Shown piece by piece: positions 2,761 to 59,863 of a stretch of DNA of 64,000 nucleotides. The first letter of the stretch is position 1; each line of letters opens with the position of its first letter. Below the pieces are notes generated by a model, which was not told the DNA's origin, did not search any database, and worked only from the letters and a program-made list of their open reading frames with translations. Source of the stretch: Owenweeksia hongkongensis DSM 17368 (lineage in GTDB: Bacteria > Bacteroidota > Bacteroidia > Flavobacteriales > Schleiferiaceae). The stretch is from NCBI RefSeq assembly GCF_000236705.1, contig NC_016599.1, forward strand, positions 3,844,001 to 3,908,000. Direction: 5' to 3'. The position numbers and the translations under genes were made by a program.

Positions 2761-2776
2761 CCCGATAGCTATCGGG
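2761..2776. repeat. Palindrome copy 3 in rnpB (P15-P17 region)
   Basis: The third identical CCCGATAGCTATCGGG is flanked by TCCCGAAT and ATGGGA, which extend the stem. It lies between the ATACCAGGGCTG and GAAAGGGCTACCC segments, in the distal helices of the specificity domain side. Confidence 0.95.
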
Positions 2777-2899
2777 ATGGGATGAAAGGGCTACCCGCTC
2801 GATCCTGGAGGGTAGGCAGAATAGATAAATGATAAGGCTTCTCACTTTTGTGAGTTGACAGAATCCGGCTTATAGGCCTGTTTTTTTTATTGAAAATAA

Positions 2900-43053: not shown

Positions 43054-43692
43054 TTATACATCATAGCCATTGGCCATGGCGTATTTTACCAAGCCGGTAA
43101 TATTACGAACACCTATTTTTTTCATAAGATTTGTACGGTGGCTATCAATCGTTTTGTGGCTAACATGAAGCTTTTCAGCAATTTCCTTGTTCGTATATCC
43201 TTGAGCAATAAGTGTAAGTATTTCTTTTTCCCTTGAGGTAAGATTGGCCATAGGAACCACAGGAGTGGAGCCAGGAATGATTTTTACTTTGCTCTGCTCT
43301 TCAAATATTGCCGGACTATAATAGCTTTTTCCATTCCTTACTAAGTCAATCGCCAAAAGAAACTCTTCACTATCCGAATGCTTTAGAATATAACCTTTGG
43401 CACCAAGCCTTACTACCTGGCGGTGTATTGATGAGTCACCAAACATACTGATGATAATCACCTTGGTGCTGAGAAAACAGTCATTTATATGTTTCATCAC
43501 ATCAAGCCCATTTACTTTGGGCATATGTAGGTCAAGAATTAAATAATCTGGACGATGCTGTTCAATAAGCTCAATAGCTTCTTCACCATCCGAAGCGGAA
43601 CCTACCACTTCCAAGTCTCCAATTTTATTAATCAGCATGAGGTATCCCTCTAAAATTAATTTGTGGTCTTCGGCTATTACGATAGTTTCCAT
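43054..43692 (-). CDS. LuxR/NarL-type response regulator, copy 1
   Basis: The 212 residues comprise a receiver domain (1-120; DYLILDLHMPKVNGLDV with the acceptor Asp) and a LuxR helix-turn-helix (about 150-212; LTSREKEILTLIAQGYTNKEIA, HKTIDSHRTNLMKKIGV). It lies 13 bases after its kinase gene. A paralogous regulator at 56029 is nearly identical in domain pattern, including the closing GLVKYAxANGYxV. The family typically binds inverted TACC-type half sites, consistent with the GGGT-N3-TACCC elements upstream of the kinase genes. Confidence 0.94.
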   Translation of the reverse strand: METIVIAEDHKLILEGYLMLINKIGDLEVVGSASDGEEAIELIEQHRPDYLILDLHMPKVNGLDVMKHINDCFLSTKVIIISMFGDSSIHRQVVRLGAKGYILKHSDSEEFLLAIDLVRNGKSYYSPAIFEEQSKVKIIPGSTPVVPMANLTSREKEILTLIAQGYTNKEIAEKLHVSHKTIDSHRTNLMKKIGVRNITGLVKYAMANGYDV

Positions 43693-43705: not shown

Positions 43706-45733
43706 TTAAGCTGTTTTTTTATTTGACTGATGGGAGTAAGGGATGGCTATATGCACGCATGTTCCGTTCTCTTTAGAAGACCGGATTCTCATTCGCCCGG
43801 AAAGAGCTTCCACTCTGGAATATATATTACTGATGCCTATCCCTTCAATTTTATCTTCCTGAACATACCCTATTCCATTATCCTCTACAATCAAAATCAT
43901 CGTATCATCTCTAAGCAAAAGTTGAACACCCACATTTGTGGCATTTGCATGTTTCAATATGTTGGAAATCAACTCTTGAGTAATCCGATATAAGTGAACT
44001 TCAGTTTTTTCGGATAAACGTAAATCCACATTATGGGTTACCATATCAGCTTCTATCTCGGGATTGGTAAAAGAGCTTTTTAATAACTGTTCTATGGCCG
44101 CTTTGAGTCCGTTTTCTCTGAGAACTAAGGGCATCATTTGATGGGAAAGAGTTCGCACTTCTTTACACAAGGCATTTACCCTTTCCATAGTAACTTGCTG
44201 AGCATTGGGGGCTTCATCAAATTGTAACTGTAGTTTAAGAGCTGCTAATGATTGTCCGATGCCATCATGTAGCTCACGAGCAATGCGTTGTCGCTCGGTT
44301 TCCTGTACCTCCATCAGTTGCTCCAGTTGTTTAGTTTTCAAGGCAAACTTAAGTTTTTGATTTTCTTTCAAACCCTTCATTCTTATGAAGTATGTTACCC
44401 AAACTCCAATAACTATGAGGGTAATAAAAAGGACACCCATGGTGGCTTGTGTAGAACGGCTTTCTTTTAATTCTTCGTTCTTTCGGGTAATTGTTTGATT
44501 TTTAGCTCGTTCATTAAAATACATTTTTTCCAATTCACCCAGCTGCAATCTGCTTGAATATGTTTGCAAACTGTCTTTTAATGTTCCCCATTTTTTATAA
44601 AACAAAGAAGATTTTTCTGGAAGGTTTAATTGGAAGTATAAATCGGCAACCCCTTTATAGATATCAATTTCCGAAGCATAAAAATTTGTTGAGCTATAAT
44701 TTTCTGTCAACTTCTTCAAACTATTCAATGTTGCTATGTTATCACCCCAGTAATGGTGCATTTGGGCCGAAAATAGAAGGGAGTTTGGGAATTCAGATTT
44801 TTCTACTTTGTGGAGCTCATTGATTGCAAAAAAGGCTTCTTCGGCAAGTTTGAAATTACCTTCACGAAGGTGCACCTGACCGATGGAAGTATGGATAACT
44901 TTGGCTCGATCCAGGCGACCTTTTTCAAGGCAAATTTTTAATGCTAATTGATAGTTTTCCAATGCGTGCTCAGTTTTACCATTTTCCAAAAGAATATTAG
45001 CGTATGAATGAATAACCGAGAATAGGAGAAACATTCCATCTCCATAGCTTATTGCTTTTGCAATGTAGGGTTCTGAATAGTCTGAAAATCCAAAATAGTT
45101 ATAAATTCTTCCCATCAAAAAATAAGACATTGCCATGGAAAGCGAATCACCAGAAAGTTCAGCATATTGAATATCAAGAAAGGCATTTTCAAGACTTTCT
45201 TGCCATCTTTCAGCTTGCTGAAGTGTAATGGCTTTTTCATAGTATATGAATGCAGGTGTTTTTGGATTATCTTGTAAAAGGGCATAAGTCAGTGCTGTGT
45301 CAAAGTAGGGAAGAGCCTCTTCAATGGCTTCAATTCGCACTTTCCCTTCCAGCTTTATGATTTGTGCTTTTAGACAAAATATTTCAGCTAACCTTTTATT
45401 ATTGACGTTGCTTTTATAATAATCATGTGATCTACTTAAATATTCTTTTGCCTTTTTAATGTCTTCAAAAACCCAGTAATCGGCCATTCTTAAGTTGTTA
45501 TCCGCCCGATAAGCGGATGCTAGCTTTTTATCTTTAAGCAAATCGATTTTATGGGAAGCCAAATTGAGCAGAGCCAATGTACTGTCTGGTGAATAATTCA
45601 CCATAGTTTCTGTCAAAGTGTGAATTTCTGAAATGCTAAGTGGAGAGTTCTTTTGTGCTTGTGCTGGCCTGACGGGAAGTACCAGCAGCAGTAGAATTAT
45701 GAACTTCCAAATATGTATGTTTTTTGTTTTCAT
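43706..45733 (-). CDS. TPR-type sensor histidine kinase, copy 1
   Basis: The 675-residue kinase has a signal peptide (MKTKNIHIWKFIILLLLVLP ...), a periplasmic TPR array (about 40-400; repeats such as AEEAFFAINELHKVEK), a membrane helix (about 435-458; GVLFITLIVIGVWVTYFI), a HisKA_3 domain with RQRIARELHDGIGQSLAALK and a HATPase domain with VEDNGIGYV. It presumably phosphorylates the adjacent LuxR-type regulator. It is divergent from the giant surface gene at 45986, and the 252-base region between them holds GGGT-N3-TACCC motifs. Confidence 0.93.
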   Translation of the reverse strand: MKTKNIHIWKFIILLLLVLPVRPAQAQKNSPLSISEIHTLTETMVNYSPDSTLALLNLASHKIDLLKDKKLASAYRADNNLRMADYWVFEDIKKAKEYLSRSHDYYKSNVNNKRLAEIFCLKAQIIKLEGKVRIEAIEEALPYFDTALTYALLQDNPKTPAFIYYEKAITLQQAERWQESLENAFLDIQYAELSGDSLSMAMSYFLMGRIYNYFGFSDYSEPYIAKAISYGDGMFLLFSVIHSYANILLENGKTEHALENYQLALKICLEKGRLDRAKVIHTSIGQVHLREGNFKLAEEAFFAINELHKVEKSEFPNSLLFSAQMHHYWGDNIATLNSLKKLTENYSSTNFYASEIDIYKGVADLYFQLNLPEKSSLFYKKWGTLKDSLQTYSSRLQLGELEKMYFNERAKNQTITRKNEELKESRSTQATMGVLFITLIVIGVWVTYFIRMKGLKENQKLKFALKTKQLEQLMEVQETERQRIARELHDGIGQSLAALKLQLQFDEAPNAQQVTMERVNALCKEVRTLSHQMMPLVLRENGLKAAIEQLLKSSFTNPEIEADMVTHNVDLRLSEKTEVHLYRITQELISNILKHANATNVGVQLLLRDDTMILIVEDNGIGYVQEDKIEGIGISNIYSRVEALSGRMRIRSSKENGTCVHIAIPYSHQSNKKTA

Positions 45734-45811
45734 AGATGTCTGCTTATACAGCTTGAATCAGCTACAAAGAAAAGATGTACATCTCAATAATACATGTAAT
45801 ACCTATTCTAA

Positions 45812-45844
45812 GGTGAATACCGCAATTACCTAGGGTGGGTACCC
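45812..45844. promoter_or_regulatory. GGGT-N3-TACCC element before kinase copy 1 and the giant gene
   Basis: GGGTGGGTACCC (45833-45844) is preceded by the related GGTGAATACC (45812-45821) and AATTACC (45824-45830). These are several TACC half sites in 33 bases, between divergent genes. Confidence 0.5.
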
Positions 45845-45985
45845 TAGAGGGTATGTTCTGCAAGCCTTCAATATATAATTTCACCAGTCAAAACTACTGA
45901 TTATCTGTGCTTAGTGAGGAATGAACTCATTATTTACGGTAAGCAGGAAAACTAACAAAATTTAAAATTTAAGTCCCCTTTTTTG

Positions 45986-48900
45986 ATGAAAAAGAAATTA
46001 CAGTTTATTAAGCATTTAGCGACACTTCTATTTGCGGTATGCATAGTTAATAGTGGCTATAGCCAAAATGCCCTTCATTTTGATGGAGTAGATGATTACG
46101 TGCAAACCACGTTTCCGGGGATATTAGGCGGTAGCACGCCAATTACAGTAGAAGCTTGGATAAAAAACAATAGTGGAGGTAATCCGCAGATCATAACAGA
46201 CTGGGGTGCCAATGCAATTGGAAGCCGTTTTACATTTCGACTTCAGGATGTAGGGGGTATTAGTAATGTTCTCCGAATCGAAATTTCTGGATCCGGAATG
46301 AACGGAACTATTAACGTGGGGGATAGCACCTGGCATCATGTAGCTGTAGTGTATGATCCCAATGCCACAAATAATTATACACTTTATGTTGATGGTGTAA
46401 TGGATGTACAAGGTAATATGTCTACTTCATTAAATATTCAGGGTGTATCCGATATGCGTATCGGTCAAAGAATGGCTTCTATGCAACCTCATAATTTTGA
46501 TGGAGCAATGGAAGAAGTCAGGGTTTGGAATGTGGCCAGAACCCAAGCTCAGCTCATAGCTGATTCTGCTACCGAATTTTGCCAAGCACAAGCAGGGCTG
46601 GTAGCTTACCACAGGTTCAATAGTGGTACAGCTGGTGGTATCAATACAAATGATACTATATCTTATGACGAATCTGGGTTGAGTAATAATGGACAGCTTC
46701 ATGGTTTTGCCCTTTCTGGGAATTTTTCTAATTGGGTAACAGGAAAGTTAACCCCCTGTGTTCCTCCATCATGCTTGAGCCCAGTCGGTCTTGGTGCAAC
46801 CAATATTTCGCGCGCAACAGCGGATGTTTACTGGACTCAAAACAATGCGGGATCGACCTTTAAAGTGGAATATGGAACTTCAGGATTTACCTTGGGGCAG
46901 GGAATTAAATCAGCATCAACCAATGACACCATATCTCTAAGCGGTCTAACCGATTTGACCACGTATGATGTATATGTAAAAGAAATTTGCTCGGCTACAG
47001 ATTCAAGTGCCTGGAGTTTATTTTCCTTTACTACCACATGTGCAAGCCTTTCAGGCACGTATACAGTCAATAAGAATGCTGGAGCAAGTGCTACTAATTT
47101 TACATCATTCACAGACTTAGCGAATGCGCTTTCGATATGTGGGATAAGTGGTCCACTCACCGTGAATGTAACCCCTGGTTCAGGAGTATATAATGAACAG
47201 GTAGAGTTTTTTGCTATACCCGGTGCATCTGCCACTAATACAGTTACAATTAACGGAAATGGTGAGTCTATTATAGATTCAGGTAGCACTAACTATGCAG
47301 CATTGGTACTTAACGGTACAGATCATATCATACTTGATTCATTGCATATTATGGCTGTCGGAACCTCAAACCGTATGGCACTTCAGTTTACCAATCAGGC
47401 AGACTCAAATATTGTACGCAACTGTGTTATTGAAATGGATGGAAGTGCAACAGCAACCACTACTGCTGCTTTGAGTTTTAGCGGTAGCCTTACCTCAACT
47501 ACCACTGCAGGAAATAATGGTAATTATAACCTTATTGAAGGCAATGAGATCAGTGGAGGATATTATGGCGTGCGTCATGGTGGGCTTAGTGCTAGCTCCT
47601 ATATAGAAGGTAACCAGTTTATCGATAATACCATCCGTGATTTTCAAGTGTACGGTCTGTATAGTACCTACACTACCGGCACTGTTATTCGTGGCAATGA
47701 TATTCATCGCCTTAATAGAATGAGTGTATCTACTTTCTATGGAAGTTATAATAGAAATAGCTATGATCTGGAAATCAGCAACAACTGGTTCCATCACGGT
47801 TTTGCTCAGGCTACAGGTTCAGCAAGTGCCATGTATGGTGTGTATTCTACTTCATCTGATGCTAGCGTTGGCAGTGAGTGTAAGGTGTTTAATAACGTAT
47901 TCAGTGATATGGATAATTCAGGTAGTTCATACTACATATATAACAGTGGTTCTGATAATTGGTGGTATTTTCATAATACCATATCTACTGGTGATCCAAC
48001 TATAGGAGGAACTGGGGCGACTCGTATGTTCTATCAAACTGGTTCAGCTACGGGAGTAAAGTTTAAGAATAACATAGTATATATGGATAGGGGTACCGCT
48101 GGAGCAAATTATATGCTTTATCTGAACTCATCTTCGTCTTATGAGATTGATAACAACGGATATTATATGCCTTCCGCTGGAACAGGCAATTTCAACTTTG
48201 GTTATTACGGAGGTAATATATCTGACCTTACAGCTTGGAAGGCGGTGAACAGCAGTGCATTTGATCAAAATAGCGCTGAAGGAGATCCTTTCTTTGTGGA
48301 TCCCTCTACGGGTGATTATACACCAACAGCTGCTTATTTTAATAATATAGGAGACAACCTCCAGACTGTGGTTGCCACAGATATTAATGGTGCGGCTCGC
48401 AGTACTACACCTGACCCCGGTGCTTATGAGTTTATTCCACCTCCCGGTCCTGATATGAGCATTCTTAATATTTACCCAGGAGGCGCTAGTTGTGGAACCA
48501 CCACCGATATTATTATAGCGGTAAGCAACCAAGGAACAGATACGGTCAATTCATATAATGTAAATTATTCTGTAAATGGAGTAACTCAAACTCCAATTGC
48601 AATGGTGGGTGTGTTTGCTAGTGGTGAGGTTGATTCAATTTCAATTACAGGACTTCCTATCTCAGGGTCTTCTTTTACCTCCGTGGTTGTAACGTTGACG
48701 AGTATTGCACCCGGAGTAGATACTGACCCAGCAAACAATTCAGGAACAATTGATTTGCGCGCAGGCCTTAGCGGGACATATACATTGGATCAATCTACCG
48801 CGGCAAGTGCTACTAACTTTGTGTCATTTTCCAGTCTTACTCAGTCGCTTATGAACTATGGTGTTTGTGGGCCTGTAACGGTAAATCTTGTAGGAACAAG

Positions 48901-51900
48901 TACTACCTATACGGAGCAATTCATGCTATCAGAGATTCCCGGAGTGTCAGCTTCTAATACTGTGACTATCAACGGAAATGGCAATACATTACAGTTTCTT
49001 GCAACCAGCTCTGCAGAGAGAGCTACAGTTACCCTTAATGGAACAGATTGGTTAACCATCGACAGCTTGAATATTACAGCATTAGGAAGTTCTGGCGATT
49101 ATGGTTTTGGAGTAATGCTAACCAACAATGCTGATCACAATACAATTCGTAATTGTATTATTACTTCTGCTGATGATCAAACAAGTACCAGTTTTGGAGG
49201 ACTTACTATTTCCGGGTCAGTCGCAAGTGCTACTACCTATGGTCAAAGTGGTAATTACAACACAATTGAAGGTAACACAATTCATGGTGGTTACTATGGT
49301 ATTACATGTGTTGGAGAGAGTTCAGACTCTACTAATGGAAATATCATTAGAAATAATATTATTGAAGATTTCCATTATTATGGTGCGTATATCTACTATA
49401 ACCGCGATCTTGAGTTTTCGGGTAACAACGTTTCCAGAGCGGGAAGAACCACCACAACCACCCTTTACGCTTTAAGATTTTACCATAATGGGTCAGCTAA
49501 AATTGTTGGAAATAAAATACATGACGGTTTTACAGGAAACCCAACTTCTACAAGTTCTTCGTATTACCTGTATGTCCTTTCTATGGAAGGCACTGCATCC
49601 AATCCTTCTGAAATAGCTAATAACCTGGTGTACAATACGGAAAGTGAAGGGGTAACCTTTGGTATGTATTTCAGCAACTTAACAAATACTACCATAGCCC
49701 ATAATACAATTGCATTAGAAGATCTAGCATACCAAGGAACTGCTACTTATACATATTGCCGTGGTGTATTTTTTGCATCAACAATGAATAATGTTGACTT
49801 TAGTAACAACTTAATTTACTATGATGTTAACGGCCCTAGCGGAAATGGTTCTTGTTTGGTATATGCTAGTACTTTGCCGAGTAGCATGGATAATAATGCC
49901 TATTACGTAGGAGCAAATACTCCTGACAATTTTGGCTACTCCGGTGGATTCGCTAGCACCTTTAGCGCTTGGCAATCAAGTACCAGCCAAGAGGTCAGTT
50001 CTGTATTTAGTAATCCTTACTTTACGGATTTAGCCAATGATAACTTTACTCCTCAAACCACGGTGCTTGACGGAATGGGAGCTGATCTTACCAGCATTAT
50101 TTCTGAGGACATAAATGGTGTAATTAGAACAATACCAACTGATCCGGGAGCTATTGAATTTACAGGAGCACCTTGTACAGGTCTTTTGGGTATAACGGAT
50201 ACAGTTACAGCTAATTCTGCAACGGTTATGTGGGAAGGGCCTGGCCAGAATGCAGACATCATTTGGGGACCAGTAGGTTTTATGCAAGCTTCGATTACCC
50301 CAGATACGGTATATGTGTTGGCTCCTGATACCAGTGGCACCATGCTCGGTATGAACAGCAATAGCTGTTATGAATACTATATTAAGTTAAACTGTACTAG
50401 CAGCATTCCCGGAGCTCCAGCCTTGATGGGCCCTTATACGGTTTGCACTGATTGCGCAGGAGGAGGGCTTAACGGAACCTACACTGTAGGAGGCACTCCA
50501 GGGCCTAGTAACTTTGCAACCCTTGACTCGGTGATTGATGCACTCACAGGCTGTGGTATTAATGGCCCTGTTGTATTCAATTTGCAAGGAGGTACCCACA
50601 ATGCTTTCACCCTTGGGAATGTAGATGGAAGCAGTGCTACTAACACCATTACCTTTAATGGTTCAGCTAACTATGGAGATAGTATAATTGCCACTGGGCA
50701 GACTGCAGCTATTGAACTTGATAGAACGGCTCACGTAAGTTTCAATGGAATTTACGCGGAGAACTCCGGCATGTATGTAGTGTGGATGCATAATGAGACG
50801 TACGGAGTTAGTTTTGACAATTGTCACTTAATGGGAAATCCATCTACTTCCTCTCTCAGTTCTGTACTTGCAGCTACGGCTTCTGCTACGAGCGCTACCA
50901 CTGCCGGAAATAGCGTTTCTCACCTGAATGTGAGTAACTGTAAGATTACGGGTAACTACTATGGAGTTTCCCTTTACGGTACTTCTTCGGCTTCTAAATC
51001 ATCTGTTGCGACTTTGATTAACAATGAGTTAACCAATCAGTATTACTATGGTATGAGAACCCAGCATATGGATAGTGTATCTATAGAAGGCAACTCTGTC
51101 ACCGGGCTTAGAAATGCATCAGGCTCATATGGTATGCATATCTACTATACCGACAATGTTGAAATAATTGGCAATGAAGTGTATGGTGCAGACAATCATG
51201 CCTTGTACGTGACCTATTCAAACTATTCTAATTCCACCCCTGGTAGCTATAGCATAATTGCGAATAACATGCTTCAGTCAAACAGTGGATCTGGTATATA
51301 TGTAAACTTCCCTGAAAATCTGGATATATTCCACAACTCTATTCAAGGAGGAGGATTATACGGTATGTACCTTACTGGTTCATCTTCAATCACCGCGGGT
51401 GTTGATGTTCGTAATAATATTATAGAGAATTCAGGAACAGGTACGTCTTTATATGTGTCAACTACCCCAGGTAATACCACCATCGATTACAACCTGTACA
51501 ACTCAGGTGGTAATATCGGAAATGGCGAAGCTACACTTGCTTCATGGAAAACTGCGAATACTGCGTGGAACCAGAACTCTATTCAGGCAGCTCCTGGATT
51601 TGTATCTGCTAATGATTTTCATATTGTAGGTACTGTACCCAATGATTTGGGAGACAATACAGTTGGTATTACCGTAGATTTTGATAGCGATACAAGACCA
51701 GCATCAGGTTCTACTAGTGTGGATATTGGTGCTGATGAATACACCCCATTGAGTTATGATGTGACTCCGGATATGATTATTGCTCCACTTAGTGGAAACT
51801 GTGGTGATAGCAATATGGCAGTGAGCGTAGTGCTTACTAATCTTGGTGTACAACCGGTAACAAATGTTGGCGTTACTGTGAATGTTACTGGAGCCAATAC

Positions 51901-53314
51901 AGCTACACTTTCAGGATCTTATAGTGGTCCGTTAGCATCACTAATGAGTGATACGATAACTATCTCTGGCTTTAATTCCTATATGGGAGGTAACTTCAAC
52001 TTTGAAGTAATACTTTCTTATACCGGAGATCAGAATACTAATAACGATACCCTACAAGTTAACGGTATTGAAATCATTTCGGTTCAACCTATGGTTTACC
52101 CAATTTATGGTATTTGTACCAATGACACAACTGGTGCCTTTGCTGCTGTTTCACAAAGCGGAATTGTTCATAATTGGTATCAGAATGCTACTGATGTAAC
52201 ACCATTTGCTACTGGTGATACGGTAAGTGTTTCACCTAACCAAACATTGTTTTTAGATCGTTCCAAAGAAGTGGATCAATTAGTGGTGGATGCTCCGCAC
52301 ACCAGTTCACAATTTGGAAATATGTTTAAGATATATGTTAAAAATGATTTCACTTTTACAGGTTTCTCATTTGTGCCAGCTAGCAGTGGAACCGTTGAGC
52401 CTATTGCTTTTTACAAACAAGGAAACTTTGTAGGCCACGAAACTACCCGTGGAGACTGGACAGCTATTGATTCGCTTACAATAACGGGAGCATCGGCTAA
52501 TGCTTGGTATCGTATTAACTTCACCTCTCCGGTTCAATTTACAACAGGAGACACGATTTCCTTTTACTTAGCCAACAAGCAAGGAACCAAAATCAGATGG
52601 GAGAATATTACATCATTAAATGCGGTGGGAGACTTATTCTTCAACAATGCCGATTTTGAATATTATGCAGGTGTAACCGGAGCTTATTTTGGCAACAATA
52701 TGACTTCGGGAGGTCCTAGAGCGGTAAGCTCTATTATGCATTACTCAAGTAATGATGTTTGTGGCAACAACCGTATTGCTCTAACCATGGGCGTGCGTAA
52801 TGATTCAGCTGTAGCTGATTTTACATCTATTGTAAATGCCAATGGTGCTGATGTTGACTTTGATGCTTCAGCTTCAAAAGGGCAAGTATACACCTGGGAT
52901 TTTGGAGATGGACAATCAGGATCTGGTGTAAATACTACAAATACTTATGGAGCCGCAGGTAGTTATACTGTTACCCTTACTGTTACAGATACTATTTGCG
53001 GAACTACCGATACCATTTCAAAAACGGTATTGGCTACCGTGAGCCTAACGGAGCTTTCGCTAAGCGGAAGGGTAGAAGTGTATCCAAATCCAAACAATGG
53101 TAAGTTTAATGTAAACCTTGATTTGGTAGGTGGACAAGACGTACAGTTAGCACTTGTAAACACCGTTGGACAAGTGGTTTATACCAAAGATTTAGGTCGC
53201 GTAGGTGGCCATGTAGAAACCGAATTGCACATTGAGAACCTTGCACCGGGAGTTTATTACCTACGTGTAATGGCCAATGGAAAATCAACAACTGTAAAGA
53301 TTACAGTTCTATAA
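45986..53314 (+). CDS. Giant T9SS surface protein with three beta-helix blocks
   Basis: The ATG at 45986 gives 2442 residues (a TTG lies one codon upstream). Order: signal peptide (to about 27, ending SGYSQ); LamG/concanavalin domain (about 28-225; LHFDGVDDYV, TVEAWIKN, WHHVAVVYD); FN3 (about 262-351); cap module and beta-helix 1 (about 354-815); CARDB-like domain (about 822-921); cap module and beta-helix 2 (about 928-1392); FN3 (about 1394-1489); cap module and beta-helix 3 (about 1494-1920); CARDB-like (about 1927-2025); an Ig-like and a jelly-roll-like region; PKD (about 2275-2350); and T9SS sorting domain (VYPNPNNGKFNVNL ... VKITVL). It is probably an adhesin or polysaccharide-binding protein; no catalytic residues are evident. 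Confidence 0.92.
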   Translation: MKKKLQFIKHLATLLFAVCIVNSGYSQNALHFDGVDDYVQTTFPGILGGSTPITVEAWIKNNSGGNPQIITDWGANAIGSRFTFRLQDVGGISNVLRIEISGSGMNGTINVGDSTWHHVAVVYDPNATNNYTLYVDGVMDVQGNMSTSLNIQGVSDMRIGQRMASMQPHNFDGAMEEVRVWNVARTQAQLIADSATEFCQAQAGLVAYHRFNSGTAGGINTNDTISYDESGLSNNGQLHGFALSGNFSNWVTGKLTPCVPPSCLSPVGLGATNISRATADVYWTQNNAGSTFKVEYGTSGFTLGQGIKSASTNDTISLSGLTDLTTYDVYVKEICSATDSSAWSLFSFTTTCASLSGTYTVNKNAGASATNFTSFTDLANALSICGISGPLTVNVTPGSGVYNEQVEFFAIPGASATNTVTINGNGESIIDSGSTNYAALVLNGTDHIILDSLHIMAVGTSNRMALQFTNQADSNIVRNCVIEMDGSATATTTAALSFSGSLTSTTTAGNNGNYNLIEGNEISGGYYGVRHGGLSASSYIEGNQFIDNTIRDFQVYGLYSTYTTGTVIRGNDIHRLNRMSVSTFYGSYNRNSYDLEISNNWFHHGFAQATGSASAMYGVYSTSSDASVGSECKVFNNVFSDMDNSGSSYYIYNSGSDNWWYFHNTISTGDPTIGGTGATRMFYQTGSATGVKFKNNIVYMDRGTAGANYMLYLNSSSSYEIDNNGYYMPSAGTGNFNFGYYGGNISDLTAWKAVNSSAFDQNSAEGDPFFVDPSTGDYTPTAAYFNNIGDNLQTVVATDINGAARSTTPDPGAYEFIPPPGPDMSILNIYPGGASCGTTTDIIIAVSNQGTDTVNSYNVNYSVNGVTQTPIAMVGVFASGEVDSISITGLPISGSSFTSVVVTLTSIAPGVDTDPANNSGTIDLRAGLSGTYTLDQSTAASATNFVSFSSLTQSLMNYGVCGPVTVNLVGTSTTYTEQFMLSEIPGVSASNTVTINGNGNTLQFLATSSAERATVTLNGTDWLTIDSLNITALGSSGDYGFGVMLTNNADHNTIRNCIITSADDQTSTSFGGLTISGSVASATTYGQSGNYNTIEGNTIHGGYYGITCVGESSDSTNGNIIRNNIIEDFHYYGAYIYYNRDLEFSGNNVSRAGRTTTTTLYALRFYHNGSAKIVGNKIHDGFTGNPTSTSSSYYLYVLSMEGTASNPSEIANNLVYNTESEGVTFGMYFSNLTNTTIAHNTIALEDLAYQGTATYTYCRGVFFASTMNNVDFSNNLIYYDVNGPSGNGSCLVYASTLPSSMDNNAYYVGANTPDNFGYSGGFASTFSAWQSSTSQEVSSVFSNPYFTDLANDNFTPQTTVLDGMGADLTSIISEDINGVIRTIPTDPGAIEFTGAPCTGLLGITDTVTANSATVMWEGPGQNADIIWGPVGFMQASITPDTVYVLAPDTSGTMLGMNSNSCYEYYIKLNCTSSIPGAPALMGPYTVCTDCAGGGLNGTYTVGGTPGPSNFATLDSVIDALTGCGINGPVVFNLQGGTHNAFTLGNVDGSSATNTITFNGSANYGDSIIATGQTAAIELDRTAHVSFNGIYAENSGMYVVWMHNETYGVSFDNCHLMGNPSTSSLSSVLAATASATSATTAGNSVSHLNVSNCKITGNYYGVSLYGTSSASKSSVATLINNELTNQYYYGMRTQHMDSVSIEGNSVTGLRNASGSYGMHIYYTDNVEIIGNEVYGADNHALYVTYSNYSNSTPGSYSIIANNMLQSNSGSGIYVNFPENLDIFHNSIQGGGLYGMYLTGSSSITAGVDVRNNIIENSGTGTSLYVSTTPGNTTIDYNLYNSGGNIGNGEATLASWKTANTAWNQNSIQAAPGFVSANDFHIVGTVPNDLGDNTVGITVDFDSDTRPASGSTSVDIGADEYTPLSYDVTPDMIIAPLSGNCGDSNMAVSVVLTNLGVQPVTNVGVTVNVTGANTATLSGSYSGPLASLMSDTITISGFNSYMGGNFNFEVILSYTGDQNTNNDTLQVNGIEIISVQPMVYPIYGICTNDTTGAFAAVSQSGIVHNWYQNATDVTPFATGDTVSVSPNQTLFLDRSKEVDQLVVDAPHTSSQFGNMFKIYVKNDFTFTGFSFVPASSGTVEPIAFYKQGNFVGHETTRGDWTAIDSLTITGASANAWYRINFTSPVQFTTGDTISFYLANKQGTKIRWENITSLNAVGDLFFNNADFEYYAGVTGAYFGNNMTSGGPRAVSSIMHYSSNDVCGNNRIALTMGVRNDSAVADFTSIVNANGADVDFDASASKGQVYTWDFGDGQSGSGVNTTNTYGAAGSYTVTLTVTDTICGTTDTISKTVLATVSLTELSLSGRVEVYPNPNNGKFNVNLDLVGGQDVQLALVNTVGQVVYTKDLGRVGGHVETELHIENLAPGVYYLRVMANGKSTTVKITVL
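47047..47270 (+). other. Cap module 1 before beta-helix 1
   Basis: About 75 residues begin LSGTYTVNKNAGASATNF and include CGISGPLTVNV and IPGASATNTVTINGNG. The same pattern precedes beta-helices 2 and 3 and the helix of the gene at 59864. Confidence 0.7.
48769..48990 (+). other. Cap module 2 before beta-helix 2
   Basis: LSGTYTLDQSTAASATNF, GVCGPVTVNL and IPGVSASNTVTINGNG align with module 1 over the whole length. Confidence 0.7.
50467..50670 (+). other. Cap module 3 before beta-helix 3
   Basis: LNGTYTVGGTPGPSNF, CGINGPVVFNLQGG and VDGSSATNTITFNGSA form the third, shorter copy. Confidence 0.65.
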
Positions 53315-53347
53315 ATTTGGAAATTGGGTTATTTCCTTAAATAGGAG

Positions 53348-53377
53348 AGGGCTGCTCGAAAGAGTAGCCCTTTTTTT
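53348..53377 (+). terminator. Terminator after the giant surface protein
   Basis: AGGGCTGCTC pairs with GAGTAGCCCT (one mismatch) around a GAAA tetraloop and runs into seven T. Confidence 0.88.
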
Positions 53378-53888
53378 ATTCCTCAAAAGTAGGATTGGCT
53401 AAAAATACTTGCCACACCTGTTTGCTCATTTTGCCAAAGGCCTTATTAACCTTTACAATTATCAAGTCGGCTTTAAATGTGGGCAATGTGTTGATGGTTG
53501 AAACTTGTCCTAAAACACCTTCCTTTGGTTCAAATTTTAACTCTACAGGTTTACCGGTTTGCTTCTGTACGATAGTTTGTGCCTTTTGCATTACAAGATC
53601 TATATCCACAGAATCACCTTCAGCTACAAAAAACAGCTCGGGCACTTTTTTCTCTACATACTTTTGGTTTGACACATTTGTGGAGTTTTGCAAGTACACA
53701 GTATTGTACTCAAAAAGGGTTTGAGCTTTTTGCATACCAGCTTCTATAAATGCAGCTGAATCCGCTGGCTCTAATGACTTCTTTTCAAAACGGTTTTGCA
53801 TTTTGCCATAGCTATTGTCGCTTTGGGCGCCAAGGCTAAATGTGACCAGGCAAATTGCCAAGCTAAATATGTTTTTTGCTGCTTTCAT
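53376..53888 (-). CDS. Small exported protein of unknown function
   Basis: From the ATG at 53888 the product has 170 residues with a signal peptide (MKAAKNIFSLAICLVTFSLGAQ). The mature part is helical at first (QNRFEKKSLEPADSAAFIEAGMQKAQTLFEYNTVYLQN in two segments), then contains VDIDLVMQKAQTIVQKQTGK and closing strands around VSTINTLPTFKADLIIVKV. The frame extends upstream to 53933, but that would overlap the next gene and lose the signal peptide. No family is recognised. It follows the 298-residue gene by one base. Confidence 0.7.
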   Translation of the reverse strand: MKAAKNIFSLAICLVTFSLGAQSDNSYGKMQNRFEKKSLEPADSAAFIEAGMQKAQTLFEYNTVYLQNSTNVSNQKYVEKKVPELFFVAEGDSVDIDLVMQKAQTIVQKQTGKPVELKFEPKEGVLGQVSTINTLPTFKADLIIVKVNKAFGKMSKQVWQVFLANPTFEE

Positions 53889-53889
53889 A

Positions 53890-54786
53890 TTAATTGTCTT
53901 TTTGTACAAATCGTAGATTAATAATCTGGTCATCCTCGTACACTATGTCTTGTATTTCTAAATTCTTTAAACTGTTTACGGGCAAAATCAAGCGGTCTAT
54001 AAACTCTTCCTTGTTCAATATTTCAATACCATCGTGTTTCGGATGGCTTTGAAAAATAACTGCATCATTGTGAATGGCCTTTTGCAATTGACGCTGGCGT
54101 TTTTCCCAGTTTTTATGCTCTGTTCGCGAAAAATAATTAAGCATCATAGCGTAATCATCAGGGTAGAGTTTCAATAGCAAAGTGTCTTTAGCTTCTTCTT
54201 TTCGAACAAAAGTTTCTAATTCTTTATAGTAGGCTCCATTCACTTTTAGAGTGTCGCTTTCGCGGAATTCGAAAACAGTCAAACCTCGCTTCATTCTTCC
54301 TTTATTTTTACCAAAAGCTATCCTTAGATTATTTTGTGAAACAGATTCTAGTGTGTAAGCATCGGTGAAAACAACTACCAGCTTTTGCTTTTTGGGAAAC
54401 AGTGCATACACTCCAAATCCAGCAAGTATTACCACCGCAAGAGTAAAATAGATAAGCTTTGAGCGATTTTTCTTTTCAGCTTTTGGAGTTACTTCATTTT
54501 GGTGCTTAAAGTCGTCCCAGTTTTTAAAACCACAATACTGGCTCAGTAGGTTGAGAACATCCACACGGGGTAGTTTATCACTTTTGTTTTTGAAGTGTAA
54601 GTACACCCACTTTTCGCTCACCGTGCTTTTGCATTTTTCCTCAAGGTCTACCTGAAAAGTTTGAATATCACTGCCTGACCATTCTTTAAATTCTTTGCGA
54701 ATATTCAGGCTAGTTTCAACTTCTTTTTGCAACGTGTATTTCAGTTGTTCAAAGTAGATAAGCTCTTGTTTTTTTGTGGACTCCAA
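53890..54786 (-). CDS. Single-span membrane protein of unknown function
   Basis: The 298 residues comprise a cytoplasmic helical domain (about 1-105; YCGFKNWDDFKHQNEV) resembling regulators that read cell state, one membrane helix (about 111-130; LIYFTLAVVILAGFGVYALF), and a periplasmic domain (about 135-298). The periplasmic part has SDTLKVNGAYYKELETFV and a C-terminal strand set EIQDIVYEDDQIINLRFV. The frame starts at a TTG (54786) with no nearby ATG, so the start is uncertain. It forms an operon with the exported protein at 53376-53888. Confidence 0.6.
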   Translation of the reverse strand: MESTKKQELIYFEQLKYTLQKEVETSLNIRKEFKEWSGSDIQTFQVDLEEKCKSTVSEKWVYLHFKNKSDKLPRVDVLNLLSQYCGFKNWDDFKHQNEVTPKAEKKNRSKLIYFTLAVVILAGFGVYALFPKKQKLVVVFTDAYTLESVSQNNLRIAFGKNKGRMKRGLTVFEFRESDTLKVNGAYYKELETFVRKEEAKDTLLLKLYPDDYAMMLNYFSRTEHKNWEKRQRQLQKAIHNDAVIFQSHPKHDGIEILNKEEFIDRLILPVNSLKNLEIQDIVYEDDQIINLRFVQKDN

Positions 54787-54920
54787 ATCTAGATAGCGGT
54801 GTTTGTAATGTCTTGTAAAACTCCTGTAAAATAAGATACAATCCTTATACCGAGGGCTTACAAGGTGTTTTTTGTTGTAATGCGGTGCTTTGGCTAAGTA
54901 TTAATTAAAAACACAAAATC

Positions 54921-55931
54921 ATGTTTAAATTAAAATTGATAGCTACGGCCGCATTGCTTAGCACAGCTCTTACGGTGATAGGGCAGGTAAAAGGCAATTA
55001 TGATTATAGAGCTAATAGCAGCATTGCTACCATGCGAGAGGCTTCTTCAAACCAAAACTATGGACTCATTAATATGCCAGCTCTTGGCGATTTAACTTTT
55101 AGTATAAAAGGGTTGTATAATGCTCCGGCAGATTCATACTTGGCCATATTTACCTCCACACAAGTTGGCGAAACCCAAAGGGAAGCCAACGATTTACTCC
55201 GGGCAAAAATCGACTCTATAAGAAGCGGGGTGCTTAGAAAATCCGGGGATGTGGAAATGTTTGTAGACATGATTTCATTTGTTCCGCTTTATGAAACACA
55301 GGCTGCAAAAAAGATATTTTCAAAAACCACTTACAATGAAATTCCAATTGGCTTTGAGCTAAAAAAGAATTTACACTTTAAGTATTCTGATCCCAAAGTG
55401 TTAGAATACCTAGTGACCATTTGTGCCGAAAACGAAATTTATGATTTGGTTCGTGTAGACTATTTTATTGAAGACATTGATAAGAAAAAGGATAAGATGA
55501 TAATGAAGGCCGAAGGGATGCTCAAACAGAAAATACTTAGACATGGCCAGCTCACCAATGAAGATTATAAAGATAAAGACCGCCAAATGACCGAAGGCTT
55601 CTTGATTCATTTGCCACATGAGCAATATCAGTCATACACGGTTTTTAGTTCAAACGCGATGTATGTAAAGCAGTCAGGTGCTGTAAATGTTGCTCCAAAA
55701 TCCACATCTCAATTTTATATGCCCAAATTCAATAAGAATTATGATTTTGTACTAAACCCTTCCATGCTGGAGCCTGTGGTACAAATAGAATATGAAGTAA
55801 AAATGAGATTGGTTCCAAAACCTGAAAAACCAAAAGAGAAGAAAGAACCAAAGGAAGTGGTTAAAGAGAAAATAGAGAAACAGATATTCTGGGTAACTCC
55901 AACAGGGGATATAAAGCAACTAAATTTCTAG
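54921..55931 (+). CDS. Exported protein, SIMPL/DUF541-like
   Basis: The 336-residue protein has a signal peptide (MFKLKLIATAALLSTALTVIGQ). The repeated pattern LTFSIKGLYNAPADSYLAIFTSTQ, then EANDLLRAKIDSIRSGVLRKSG and VDMISFVPLYETQ, resembles SIMPL domains (surface-associated oligomers found with secreted proteins). A Lys/Glu/Pro-rich region (about 300-325) precedes the C-terminal QIFWVTPTGDIKQLNF. It is divergent from the 53890 gene. The family call is tentative. Confidence 0.6.
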   Translation: MFKLKLIATAALLSTALTVIGQVKGNYDYRANSSIATMREASSNQNYGLINMPALGDLTFSIKGLYNAPADSYLAIFTSTQVGETQREANDLLRAKIDSIRSGVLRKSGDVEMFVDMISFVPLYETQAAKKIFSKTTYNEIPIGFELKKNLHFKYSDPKVLEYLVTICAENEIYDLVRVDYFIEDIDKKKDKMIMKAEGMLKQKILRHGQLTNEDYKDKDRQMTEGFLIHLPHEQYQSYTVFSSNAMYVKQSGAVNVAPKSTSQFYMPKFNKNYDFVLNPSMLEPVVQIEYEVKMRLVPKPEKPKEKKEPKEVVKEKIEKQIFWVTPTGDIKQLNF

Positions 55932-55945
55932 GATGAAAAAACCTT

Positions 55946-55997
55946 AAAAAAGATGAACCCCAAATATCATATAAGATCTTTAGGGTTCATCCTTTTT
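55946..55997. terminator. Bidirectional terminator between the SIMPL-like gene and regulator copy 2
   Basis: ATGAACCC (55953-55960) pairs with GGGTTCAT (55983-55990), flanked by an A run upstream and CCTTTTT downstream, so the hairpin works for both convergent genes. Confidence 0.65.
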
Positions 55998-56028
55998 AAA
56001 TAGTAATTAATTGGTGATATAAGAGTGG

Positions 56029-56667
56029 CTATACCTCGTAGCCATTTGCAATGGCATATTTTACCAAACCAGTCACGTTATGCACATTTATTTTTTTCAT
56101 GAGGTTGGAGCGATGTGAGTCAATAGTTTTATGACTTAAAATAAGCTGGCTCCCAATTTCCTTGTTGGTGTATCCTTGAGCAATTAGAATAAGTATTTCC
56201 TCTTCTCTAGCCGAAAGGCTTACCAAGGGGATTATTTGTGAAGAACCAGGCAAAGTTTGGCACTTAGTATGTTCTTCAAATATGGCGGGGCTGTAATAGC
56301 TTTTACCATTCATTACCAAGCTCATTGCAAGAAGAAATTCTTCACGATCAGAGTTCTTTAAGAGATAACCTTTTGCACCAAGGCGCACCACAGCTTGGTG
56401 CATCGAAGGGTCACCAAACATACTTATTACAATTACTTTGGTCTTTGGAAAATACTCTGAAACATGCCTTAGAACATCCAGGCCATTAACCACAGGCATG
56501 TGCAAATCCAAAATCAGATAGTTGGGCTGGTGTTTTTCTATTTCATCGATTGCCTGTTGCCCATCAAAAGCAGTTGCCACAATTTCAAGATCGTCAATAT
56601 CATCAATCAGCATGCGATATCCCTCAATGATTAGGTTGTGGTCCTCGGCAAGTATTATTGTGTTCAT
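56029..56667 (-). CDS. LuxR/NarL-type response regulator, copy 2
   Basis: This 212-residue paralog of the regulator at 43054 has the same length and order: receiver (NYLILDLHMPVVNGLDV) and LuxR helix-turn-helix (LSAREEEILILIAQGYTNKEIG, HKTIDSHRSNLMKKINV). It lies nine bases after its kinase gene. The two regulators are alike enough along their whole length to indicate duplication. Confidence 0.94.
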   Translation of the reverse strand: MNTIILAEDHNLIIEGYRMLIDDIDDLEIVATAFDGQQAIDEIEKHQPNYLILDLHMPVVNGLDVLRHVSEYFPKTKVIVISMFGDPSMHQAVVRLGAKGYLLKNSDREEFLLAMSLVMNGKSYYSPAIFEEHTKCQTLPGSSQIIPLVSLSAREEEILILIAQGYTNKEIGSQLILSHKTIDSHRSNLMKKINVHNVTGLVKYAIANGYEV

Positions 56668-56676
56668 AGTATTGTA

Positions 56677-58707
56677 TTAAGCAATTCTTTTATTTATTTC
56701 AGATGAGGTGGGGATAGCAATATGAATGTAAGTTCCTTCACATTCGGCAGACTGTATTTGCACAGTTCCGCCAAGGGCTTCAAGCCTTACATTAATGTTG
56801 CTAAGGCCTATTCCTTGCGCTTTATCATCTTTGCGAAATCCTTTCCCATTATCTTCCACAATCAGCAGCAGCGTTTTTCCGCGTTTCAATAGCTGAATTC
56901 CAGCCTTAGAAGCTTTAGAGTGTCTTATTATATTAGATATTAACTCTTGTGTAATTCGATATACGTTCACCTCAATGTTGTCGGGCAACCTTCTATTTAG
57001 ACCAAAACACACAAAATCTACCTCAATGGATGACGTAGAAAAACTATGATCTATCAATTGCTCTACAGCAGATTGAAGCCCATTTTCCTTTAAAACGATA
57101 GGCATCATTTGGTGTGATAGAGATCGAACTTCATTACATATGTCATCTACACGCTGTACGGTAGTATCCGAAGCTTGTGGGTTTTTGTCAAATTGAAGTT
57201 GCATTTTTAGTGCCGCTAAGGATTGCCCGATTCCATCGTGTAGCTCTCTGGCTAGGCGCTGTCTTTCAGTTTCTTGGGCCTCCATTAGTTGGCCTAGCTG
57301 TTTTTCCTTTAGTGCAAATTTGAGCGCTTGGTTCTCCTTCATCCCTTTCATTCTTATGAAATAAACTAAGCCTCCTCCCAATAATATAACAATAATTAAA
57401 AGACCTCCCATGGTAGCTTGTTGCTGCCTGCTTTCACTGAGCTCGTCATTTTTTTGTACAATTTCTACATTCTTTCTTCTCTCCTTCAAATACATTACTT
57501 CCAATGCATTTAATTGCTGCTTGCTGGTGTGTGAATAAAGACTGTCCTTTAAAACGCCCCATTTTTTATAGTAAAATGTGGCTAATTCTGGTTGATTAAG
57601 TGAGGTGTGTAAATCGGCCGCATCCTTAAAAACATCTATGTTTCTAGGGATAACGGAGCCGCTGCCAAATTTGGTTTTAAATAAATCTAAATCTTCTAAG
57701 GCCTGATCGTTATTGCCAAGGTGATAATGCATTTGAGCAATAAAAAGTAATGTATGATAACCGGCAGACTTGTTTGACTCTAAGATAGAATTCAACTCTG
57801 CATAACTGTTTTCAGCTCCTTTATAATCTCCTTTGTTTAGTTGAATTTGCCCAATACTTGTGTAAAGAGTTGATGCCTTTGATAGATCATTCTTTTCAAG
57901 GGCTATTTTCAAGGCCTTCTCATAATTTTTTTGAGCCAAATCTTGTTTGTCATTTTGAAGAAGCACATCGGCATAAATATGAATGATAGAGTATAGTTGA
58001 GCCATTCCATTACCATACTCTATAGATTTGGCTATATATGATTCCGAAGAGTTGAATAGGCCGAAGTGATGATAGGTTCTTCCCATTAAGAAACATGAGG
58101 TTGCAATGGTCAAAGAATCTCCGGATATCTGGGCATTTTTTAATGCTAAGACTGCATTGGCAAAGCTTTCATCCCACCTTTCCATAAGTTCAAATGAGAT
58201 CGACCTCTCATAATATATAAATGAAAGAAATGCAGGGTTATTGTATTTTTCAGCATAGGTTAAAGCACTATCAAAATAGGGCAGAGCCTCATACACAGCG
58301 CAGGTGATCTTTCCATATTTAATTCTAGTCATTTGAGCTTTTAGAATATATATTTCCGCAAGCCTTTTATCATCGATGTTTTTTTTGTAGTACTCAAATG
58401 ATTTACCAGTATAGGCTTCTGCAGAATCAAGGTCGTAAAACGTCCAATAATCAGCTCTACGAAGATTGTTTTCGGCCATTAATGCATTTGCGGAATCCTT
58501 GTCTTGAATTCGTCTAATTTTTTGGGAAGCTAAATTCAATAGAACAAGGGAGCTGTCGCGTGAGTAGTTGATATATCTTTCTACAAGTTGGTGTATCTCA
58601 GATGGACTGAGTTGCTGGGTGCTTTGACCTTTTACTGTCAATAATGTAATACAAGTAAAACCCCATATAAGTAAGTGTTGTAAGCCCCTCTGTCTTTTCA
58701 ATTTCAT
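56677..58707 (-). CDS. TPR-type sensor histidine kinase, copy 2
   Basis: This 676-residue paralog of the kinase at 43706 shares all parts: signal peptide, periplasmic TPR array (about 40-400; AENSYAELNSILESNK, KNYEKALKIALEKNDLSKA), membrane helix (about 435-455; GLLIIVILLGGGLVYFI), HisKA_3 (RQRLARELHDGIGQSLAALK) and HATPase (VEDNGKGFR). It is divergent from the giant gene at 59864 across a 1156-base region carrying three GGGT-N3-TAC elements. Confidence 0.93.
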   Translation of the reverse strand: MKLKRQRGLQHLLIWGFTCITLLTVKGQSTQQLSPSEIHQLVERYINYSRDSSLVLLNLASQKIRRIQDKDSANALMAENNLRRADYWTFYDLDSAEAYTGKSFEYYKKNIDDKRLAEIYILKAQMTRIKYGKITCAVYEALPYFDSALTYAEKYNNPAFLSFIYYERSISFELMERWDESFANAVLALKNAQISGDSLTIATSCFLMGRTYHHFGLFNSSESYIAKSIEYGNGMAQLYSIIHIYADVLLQNDKQDLAQKNYEKALKIALEKNDLSKASTLYTSIGQIQLNKGDYKGAENSYAELNSILESNKSAGYHTLLFIAQMHYHLGNNDQALEDLDLFKTKFGSGSVIPRNIDVFKDAADLHTSLNQPELATFYYKKWGVLKDSLYSHTSKQQLNALEVMYLKERRKNVEIVQKNDELSESRQQQATMGGLLIIVILLGGGLVYFIRMKGMKENQALKFALKEKQLGQLMEAQETERQRLARELHDGIGQSLAALKMQLQFDKNPQASDTTVQRVDDICNEVRSLSHQMMPIVLKENGLQSAVEQLIDHSFSTSSIEVDFVCFGLNRRLPDNIEVNVYRITQELISNIIRHSKASKAGIQLLKRGKTLLLIVEDNGKGFRKDDKAQGIGLSNINVRLEALGGTVQIQSAECEGTYIHIAIPTSSEINKRIA

Positions 58708-58769
58708 ATCTCATAAAAGCTTTGTGAGCCGAAAATTAGCATAAAATATCCTCACCGTTAACTCATTTA

Positions 58770-58794
58770 GGGTGTATACCCCATGAAATTGCCA
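58770..58794. promoter_or_regulatory. GGGT-N3-TACCC + AAATTGCC element, kinase copy 2
   Basis: GGGTGTATACCC is followed by AAATTGCCA starting 16 bases after its first G. It lies 63 bases before the kinase ATG. Confidence 0.55.
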
Positions 58795-59136
58795 CGCATA
58801 CCTGATGATGTATGGTCCTGAAAGAATGTAACATTGGATGATTCATAGAGGCGTATCAGCTCTTTTTGATACGAATTTATTCGATCACTAAGTTGACGGT
58901 TTAACATTAAGCCATAACACTATGATGTATAAAGTGAGAGAGAGGCTGATCTCTTTACTGTTTTGACTGTAACAGCTGATTTTTAAGAAAAGGGGAGTAT
59001 AATTGGTGGTGTCCAGCGAAAAGGTGAGATTCCTAATCAATTTGATGCGCTGCAATTACCTATTCGGTTGGTAAAAGGGTTGTGAGTTAAAACAAGTGTA
59101 TTATTACATATCATTAATATATAGATCCTATGACTA

Positions 59137-59160
59137 GGGTATATACACGAGTAAATTACC
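59137..59160. promoter_or_regulatory. GGGT-N3-TACAC + AAATTACC element
   Basis: GGGTATATACAC is followed by AAATTACC at the same 16-base offset; it agrees with the kinase copy at 19 of 25 positions. Confidence 0.5.
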
Positions 59161-59292
59161 TTATTTACCTTAAAGGAAAATTGATGATATGATCGTTACT
59201 TTGCCCTGTTACCACAATAGGGAAGTCCAATACTTGGATTTTCATTCTTATATTTAGTTTTCGTAGACCTATTTATTAAGAAAAATGGAAGT

Positions 59293-59326
59293 GATAGAGC
59301 TCCGGTTGTTAAATCGGAGCTCTATC
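59293..59326. other. Perfect 12-bp hairpin in the gene-free region
   Basis: GATAGAGCTCCG pairs perfectly with CGGAGCTCTATC over a 10-base loop. It is followed by CATTTTA on the plus strand and, on the minus strand, by ACTTCCATTTTTC. It could end a small RNA in either direction. Confidence 0.55.
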
Positions 59327-59637
59327 CATTTTATACCACTTGGTTTTTGAGATACCTCATAAATGAACCTGAATAATACATAATTGGCAGGATTTACAAA
59401 ATAAAATCATTACAAAAAGCAATAGTGGTATTTTTTAGTGAATAAGAGCGCAAATTTAGGATTCCGGATGTCAGCGGAGTAAAGATTGAAAGGTGTTGTA
59501 GGTGCAAAGTTTCTTTCTAAATAAGCAGGGTGCAATCTGCGTTTCATTTCGTCTGGCAAACAGAGAGCTATAAGGCTCAAGCCCCCTTTTTTTGTCCAAT
59601 CCCATCAAACATGATTAGGTGCTCTCGAATTGCGCTG

Positions 59638-59662
59638 GGGTATTTACCCTAAAAAATTGCCA
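59638..59662. promoter_or_regulatory. GGGT-N3-TACCC + AAATTGCC element, before the second giant gene
   Basis: GGGTATTTACCC is followed by AAATTGCCA at the 16-base offset. It agrees with the kinase copy at 20 of 26 positions and lies 202 bases before the ATG at 59864. Confidence 0.55.
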
Positions 59663-59863
59663 TGGGTGCCCGATTGTCTTATTCTTGAGGAAATACAAAA
59701 TTTGTGTCTTATCAAATTGTTAAATAAATAAAGGCTTGACAACAAGGAGCTGAGGTTTAGTAGAGGTGAGTTCTACAGGCGGAATTAACCAAATCTCTTT
59801 TTCAAGATGAGATCAAATAGGAAACTTCAAATTGTCATAAACAGAATTAATTAAAATTAGAGT

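Follow-up and report, generated by a model that had tools for sequence, protein, structure and literature searches.

The NarL-type response regulators encoded beside the giant T9SS protein genes of Owenweeksia hongkongensis probably bind a two-dimer operator and activate these cargo genes, a reading to which we give a probability of about 0.75 on sequence evidence. It draws on an operator motif, its spacing from a promoter element, its co-occurrence with the kinase/regulator pairs and its link to the regulator's recognition helix, each of which can be read in the DNA itself. The window analysed is a stretch of 64,000 nucleotides, record positions 3844001-3908000 of the 4,000,057-bp single contig of this genome (G000).

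Kinase/regulator pairs and giant T9SS genes

The window holds two pairs of a TPR kinase and a LuxR-type regulator together with the giant genes, operators and predicted promoter elements listed here (window positions):

43054..43692, minus strand: response regulator 1 (REC and GerE/LuxR HTH), 212 aa; aligned with regulator 2 (Pfam Response_reg, GerE)
43706..45733, minus strand: TPR sensor histidine kinase 1, 675 aa; 53% identity to kinase 2, which has Pfam domains
45810..45844, minus strand: operator A; IR 45833-45844, RE3 45821-45827, RE4 45810-45816, second IR core 45811-45822
45876..45883, plus strand: weak -7-like box TAATTTCA, 4/6, mirror offset 43, facing giant A (spacing scan)
45986..53314, plus strand: giant A, with LamG, beta-helix, PKD and C-terminal T9SS sorting domain; ATG 45986, listed ORF from TTG 45983
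56029..56667, minus strand: response regulator 2, 212 aa (PF00072 and PF00196)
56677..58707, minus strand: TPR sensor histidine kinase 2, 676 aa (PF07730 and PF02518)
58731..58738, minus strand: predicted -7 box TAATTTTC, 5/6, mirror offset 43, facing kinase 2 (spacing scan)
58770..58804, plus strand: operator B1; IR 58770-58781, RE3 58787-58793, RE4 58798-58804; 34.9 bits with model R2, whose training included B1
58829..58836, plus strand: -7-like box TAACATTG, 5/6, offset 59 of B1 (spacing scan)
59137..59171, plus strand: operator B2, IR with TACAC (motif match)
59196..59203, plus strand: -7-like box TTACTTTG, 5/6, offset 59 of B2 (spacing scan)
59208..59336, plus strand: predicted small RNA of ~125 nt with an intrinsic terminator at its end (stem 59293-59326); 59209-59336 folded
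59638..59672, plus strand: operator B3 (motif match)
59673..59676, plus strand: ATTG, predicted -33 element (TTG at -35 to -33), directly 3' of RE4 (sequence)
59697..59704, plus strand: -7-like box AAAATTTG, 5/6, offset 59 of B3, facing giant B (spacing scan)
59864..64000, plus strand: giant B, 2223 aa, extending past the window; MAM, fn3, beta-helix, PKD and T9SS sorting domain (domain search)

By their domains the pairs are NarL/FixJ-type two-component systems with a HisKA_3 kinase, with phosphotransfer predicted. Regulator 2 has a receiver and a GerE/LuxR HTH domain (PF00072 and PF00196, above cut-off) and nothing beyond these two in Pfam at E ≤ 0.001; regulator 1 and a third regulator align with it. 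The gene of kinase 2, which adjoins that of regulator 2, encodes HisKA_3 and HATPase_c domains (PF07730 and PF02518, above cut-off). The three paralogous regulators are encoded at window 43054, window 56029 and record 3916113 (past the window), with an identity to the first of 68% for the second and 65% for the third. Each operon has a TPR kinase gene upstream of the regulator gene, and the three kinases are 48-63% identical. As recognition helices the regulators have SHKTIDSHRTNLMKK, SHKTIDSHRSNLMKK and SHKTIDSHRTKLMKK, the second and third each one residue off the first. This SH-type helix is found in 3 of the 9 LuxR-HTH regulators read in the genome, all three from these pairs (L026 and L035 were not readable by the patterns used).

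The cluster goes on just past the window (record 3910792-3925291; L080, L209) with the third kinase/regulator pair and two more giant T9SS genes. Within the window, ORFs of 185, 298 and 336 aa lie between giant A and regulator 2 (53376-54786 and 54921-55931), with no Pfam match at E ≤ 0.001. Further away, an ORF with nitrous oxide reductase propeller repeats near a TonB-dependent receptor (31198-33165 and 33875-35881) marks a possible nitrous oxide reduction cluster.

The four giants of the cluster (A in the window, B beginning in it, C and D beyond it) have C-terminal T9SS sorting domains, and intergenic operator sites precede all four: A, B3, C (L080:7158-7169) and the pair D1/D2 (L080:15431 and 15534), which lie 0.65 and 0.55 kb from giant D. 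Sites B1, B2 and D1/D2 are directed into intergenic DNA. At least one T9SS gene elsewhere in the genome, and probably two, also have sites. An untrained site at record 2995784 (X; 23.7 bits with R2) precedes a 510-aa LamG protein with a T9SS domain (gene at 2995900), and another at 3294438 (Y; 17.4 bits with R2, in the chance range) precedes a 1546-aa fn3/PKD protein with a T9SS domain. Sites D2 (20.2 bits) and Y (17.2 bits) fall inside the range of chance scores and take their support from position and from the -7 box described below. Por_Secre_tail was found at the C-terminus of giants A, B, C and D, of proteins X and Y, and of the five complete giants of relatives tested; none was found in the giant on the kinase side in relative G003, whose gene is cut by the contig end.

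The full motif of the proposed operator

The first-pass annotation had reported the inverted repeat GGGT-N3-TACCC at four places, and the repeat is real. The pattern GGGTNNNTACMC occurs in the window at 45833, 58770, 59137 (the TACAC variant) and 59638 and at no other place, giving five matches (59638 matches on both strands) against 0.67 expected, and none of 100 shuffles reached five. The annotation's placement of all four between the TPR-kinase/LuxR pairs and divergent giant ORFs holds as well, as does its AAATTRCC at a common 16-base offset from the repeats at 58770, 59137 and 59638. At 45833 this asymmetric motif stands on the minus strand: read from 45844, it has AATTGCG at the corresponding offset. 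An extra element, ACC(T/C), lies 30-33 bases past the first G of the repeat. Aligning the genome's own sites with those of relatives yields a motif of ~38 bp, TAGGGT-N4-ACCCTA-N3-AATTRC-N6-TACCT, in which the arms of the inverted repeat (IR) are named RE1 and RE2, AATTRC is RE3 and TACCT is RE4. RE4 was absent from the search pattern by which the relatives' sites were found, so its presence there is independent evidence.

At up to two mismatches, GGGTNNNNACCCNNNNNAATTGCC has 9 matches in the genome versus 3 for the backward control; the best three (0, 0 and 1 mismatch) and one with 2 mismatches are the window sites. At up to one mismatch, the short pattern matched in 10 of 60 genomes including this one and the control in 2, so the short pattern alone is only moderately specific and the longer motif models are more so. 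In regions picked for containing sites, the IR core GGTN4ACC occurs 7 times in 3089 bp of the genome's own DNA (0.26 expected) and 8 times in 2570 bp of relatives' DNA (0.17 expected). At sites A and C a second IR core lies exactly 22 bp from the first, with RE4 in the place of its right half-site; RE3/RE4 may therefore be read as a further dimer site, degenerate and two helical turns from the first.

Promoter spacing

The Bacteroidota sigma-A -7 box is TAnnTTTG at -12 to -5 (PMC7366714, PMC9723704). Of 17 sites, 8 have a box matching at least 5/6 precisely 59 bp from the motif start and 6 have one at offset 43 from the mirrored IR (background 1.9%); in 5000 rotations no offset gathered more than 5 sites. 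The -7 box is outside all motif models. A first spacing run gave 7 and 6 of 16 sites; the start of Y was then shifted by one base to fit the repeat arms, and the site of the X homolog in G003 was added. The offset-59 set consists of B1, B2, B3, D2, Y and three sites of relatives (G003a, G019, G060), each 5/6 and none 6/6. In six of these eight sites ATTG lies directly 3' of RE4, giving TTG at -35 to -33. The mirror-43 set comprises C, G003b, G020a and G020b1 (6/6, each facing a giant) and B1 and G020b2 (5/6, each facing a kinase gene), so that B1 belongs to both. Below threshold, A and D1 have 4/6 at mirror 43 and X has 4/6 at mirror 42. Given a -7 box at -12 to -5, the IR spans about -71 to -60 in the motif geometry or -55 to -44 in the mirror geometry. 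Operator orientation as the only guide to the target was dropped, the sites showing two geometries, and a scan for E. coli-type sigma-70 promoters was uninformative here (5 found versus 5.4, and 5 versus 3.3).

Two of the operators directed into intergenic DNA, B2 and D2, may have small RNAs as targets: at both, TTACTTTG stands at offset 59 and is followed ~95 bp further on by a terminator-like stem. The predicted stretches, window 59208-59336 and L080:15606-15724, the latter at record 3919105-3919223, lie in the middle of long kinase-giant intergenic regions and are ~54% identical over 216 columns; both fold better than shuffles (z -6.0 and -2.9), mostly owing to the terminator. A known structured RNA at the operators was rejected as a candidate: no Rfam family reached its gathering score in the operator regions of the window or the loci, the only matches being RNase P RNA and a tRNA elsewhere. 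The former is a bacterial class A RNase P RNA at window 2485-2888.

Occurrence among related genomes

Model R1 was built from the five own sites and model R3 from 14 sites, all from five kinase-bearing genomes. Across 88 family genomes (the best 73 first-look candidates per genome scored, with strict filters), R1 at E ≤ 0.01 had matches in three, G000, G020 and G060. The two outside sites in G020 lie between two tandem giants of the cluster and between kinase and giant, and the one in G060, whose locus was fetched after the match, lies between a 2257-aa giant and the orthologous kinase/regulator pair. Outside the own genome the model thus matched only clusters with orthologous kinase/regulator pairs. 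The same genome-wide scan at E ≤ 0.01 had no match in G003 or G019; the sites of these two genomes were located by scanning their kinase loci with mismatches allowed. Run unfiltered over 75 kb in five stretches from relatives, among them one fetched for an R2 match, R1 had operator sites of this kind as its first six matches and the kinase-side site of G003 as the eighth, at 10.4 bits. G003 also has a site before a second giant on a different contig (25.7 bits with R2).

Kinase orthologs at E ≤ 1e-50 were found in 5 of 395 order genomes, namely G000, G003, G019, G020 and G060, and the kinases of the genomes that keep the motif are 34-57% identical. A kinase tree groups A with G003 and B/D with G020, leaving G019 and G060 unplaced. 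A search with kinase 2 at E ≤ 1e-45 returned 6 of 88 family genomes. The sixth, G067, was rejected as a further pair: its kinase match is weaker (31%), the regulator there shares 31% identity with P0003 but has a different helix, and no match in the genome exceeds 15.3 bits. The 14 training sites of R3 score 27.8-34.7 bits with it, against at best 21.1 among the listed scores of kinase-less genomes. In the 395 genomes (best 16 candidates per genome, strict filters) R3 at E ≤ 0.05 matched in 29, with ~20 expected by chance. Matches of 17-21 bits inside ORFs (G000:2138428, with a partial motif at 20.6 bits, and G019:C106) were taken as chance. A model-free BLAST comparison of 12 intergenic regions gave nine region pairs at E ≤ 0.001, every one aligned over the motif; the remaining matches begin at E 0.004. 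The closest X homolog in G003 (43% identical) has an upstream site (14.5 bits with R1, 18.7 with R3; X itself 14.9 with R1), and the other 11 X homologs found, in 10 genomes without the kinase ortholog, nowhere in the locus exceed 8.5 bits with R3.

Distant Bacteroidota

A kinase-alignment scan of titled genome contigs provided 551 loci, of which the best 80 were taken; one is G003 and the others are at most 42% identical in their best segment. Over these 80, R3 identified the G003 site and sites at L230 (24.3 bits), L218, L219 and L215, the last four lying immediately downstream of the regulator gene. Reading the intergenic DNA of further distant loci revealed the same layout, often with the half-site TACGGT. 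Among SH-helix regulators, 14 of 18 have a perfect -7 box 58-60 bp from the start of their best post-regulator site, versus 1 of 43 others (Fisher P 1.9e-9, a value that is too small, as the SH regulators could form a single clade and L216/L238 and L218/L219 appear to be near-duplicates). This comparison, on the plus strand, took the top-scoring site in the 400 bp that follow the regulator in 61 of 79 loci, those with a recognised helix (18 dropped), from the best 80 of 551; its weight matrix was made from family sites only and included no -7 box, the SH grouping was adopted once the data had been inspected, and ancestry was left uncorrected. Three of the 14 positives have low matrix scores (L225, L272, L275). 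The SH loci L220, L228, L229 and L261 lack a site, the gene in L220 being followed by little DNA, and one SPRT-type locus, L245, has a site.

In these distant Bacteroidota a conserved unit is observed of kinase, regulator, operator and then a gene for a lipoprotein-like protein of 154-158 aa. The next ORF has this length in 8 of the 14 positives (L216, L218, L219, L222, L225, L227, L230 and L238, lipoprotein-like in each), and all three such ORFs run against Pfam (L218, L222, L230) match DUF6252, for which the search of open-licence papers found no publication; at L248 the next gene encodes a beta-propeller protein. The record titles among the distant loci include Bacteroidales, Marinilabiliales and Prolixibacteraceae; the family of Owenweeksia is placed in Flavobacteriales (PMC7214798). 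We hold it an even chance that SH[KR]T[IV]D-helix regulators use a promoter code across at least two Bacteroidota orders, with a four-element operator 58-60 bp upstream of a sigma-A -7 box and often before a DUF6252 lipoprotein gene. The Owenweeksia family would then have recruited this code, in two mirror geometries, for a regulon with several sensors that takes in giant T9SS surface proteins, part of those sensors themselves and two small RNAs.

Proposed mechanism and alternatives

Each operator would comprise two dimer sites, a distal IR (TAGGGT-N4-ACCCTA) and a proximal degenerate one (AATTRC ... TACCT), about two helical turns apart. In the main geometry the proximal site would abut the -33 TTG, with the -7 box TAnnTTTG beginning 59 bp from the operator start, and the activated regulator could recruit sigma-A RNA polymerase from -71 to -37 through class I and class II contacts. 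In the second geometry, seen only in the Owenweeksia family, the operator appears reversed and the -7 box 43 bp off. From these arrangements we infer binding, activation rather than repression, a signal and the sharing of sites among the three regulators. The targets would be giant T9SS protein genes, probably some kinase genes and possibly two small RNAs.

The first-pass annotation had proposed an autoregulated circuit in which each duplicated pair controls its own neighbour. Autoregulation is possible, in that -7 boxes of 5/6 face kinase genes at 58770 and in G020 (at mirror 43) and in G003 (at mirror 42); the third pair reaches only 4/6, and the 45833 site and G060 have no -7 box toward the kinase at a canonical offset. 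Private control of one neighbour is not supported, with a third pair and two giants with sites past the window, near-identical helices and sites before at least one T9SS gene elsewhere. A single shared regulon fed by three parallel TPR-kinase sensors is the likelier arrangement over three private circuits, because the helices of the three regulators are nearly the same and further targets lie elsewhere. The annotation's tie between the motif, the kinase/LuxR pairs and the giant T9SS genes is strengthened, since the motif recurs at orthologous pairs in four other genomes, follows the regulator's helix in distant lineages and keeps fixed spacings to -7 boxes.

An unlinked transcription factor could bind the operator, with the kinase and regulator genes merely co-regulated targets, and sites X and Y do lie far from all three pairs in G000. 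This is unlikely, however, as the operator tracks the helix of the linked regulator (14/18 vs 1/43), and in distant loci it stands after the regulator gene and before another gene, so that the pair is not its target there. Scores above 21.1 bits were moreover confined to the five kinase-bearing among 395 order genomes, although these sites trained the model. The regulator might instead repress, the operator blocking promoters until a signal removes the block. Autoregulation by response regulators can be negative, and the mirror-type sites put the IR near the promoter, but an IR at about -71 to -60 or -55 to -44 and an RE4 ending just before the -33 TTG are typical activator positions (as in ComA), which makes repression improbable. 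That the sites are leftovers of a segmental duplication of kinase and giant, with no regulatory role, is very improbable despite the three paralogous pairs and four giants within about 38 kb: the motif is the strongest similarity among the intergenic regions, recurs at varied orientation and distance, is kept where kinases are 34-57% identical and occurs before genes away from any kinase.

Comparison with known systems

The regulator sequence matches solved structures of the NarL family over its full length (DesR 2.3e-31, NarL 3e-30, VraR 3.8e-28), whereas its recognition-helix residues differ from those of NarL in the alignment, at positions that we take to contact DNA. The assumption that LuxR-type regulators often bind inverted TACC half sites is too loose, for the NarL heptamers (TACYYMT, 7-2-7) face the opposite way to the half-sites here.

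PorX carries a PglZ domain and is not a LuxR-HTH protein; a PorX-type regulator was rejected here, regulator 2 showing only Response_reg and GerE at E ≤ 0.001. PorXY of Porphyromonas gingivalis (PMC4800418, PMC5005315) is reported in the first of these papers to regulate secretion-component genes via the sigma factor SigP. Both are two-component systems tied to the T9SS in Bacteroidota, but the LuxR-type regulator here is predicted to act directly on cargo genes. On this proposal the transcription of T9SS cargo genes would itself be under direct control, apart from the regulation of the machinery by PorXY. Open-licence papers on TPR kinases, LuxR, T9SS and Bacteroidetes (titles and beginnings of abstracts, among the matches listed) reported no such operator or regulon. 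Many of the Bacteroidota loci fetched pair a TPR-domain kinase with a LuxR-type partner, and the operator, promoter spacing and recognition helix together open the way to direct tests and to target prediction for related pairs.

ComA, like the regulators here, is a LuxR-HTH response regulator; its partner is ComP, while the kinase here is a TPR/HisKA_3 sensor and not ComP. In Bacillus subtilis, ComA uses an IR with a 4-nt spacer for class I activation and a downstream direct repeat by the -35 for class II activation (PMC4797271). The operators described here likewise have an IR with a 4-nt spacer (TAGGGT-N4-ACCCTA) and, just downstream and beside the predicted -35/-33, a degenerate second pair of elements (RE3 and RE4), which fits class I plus class II activation. 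Unlike in ComA, the half-site is TAGGGT (often TACGGT in distant loci) and not TTGCGG, the TAC cores of RE3/RE4 are 9 bp apart where ComA hexamers have a 5-nt spacer, and a second IR core at A and C takes the place of the direct repeat, with a mirrored 43-bp geometry besides. Because the half-site and the spacing of the second element differ, the operator appears to follow a ComA-like mode without being a ComA site.
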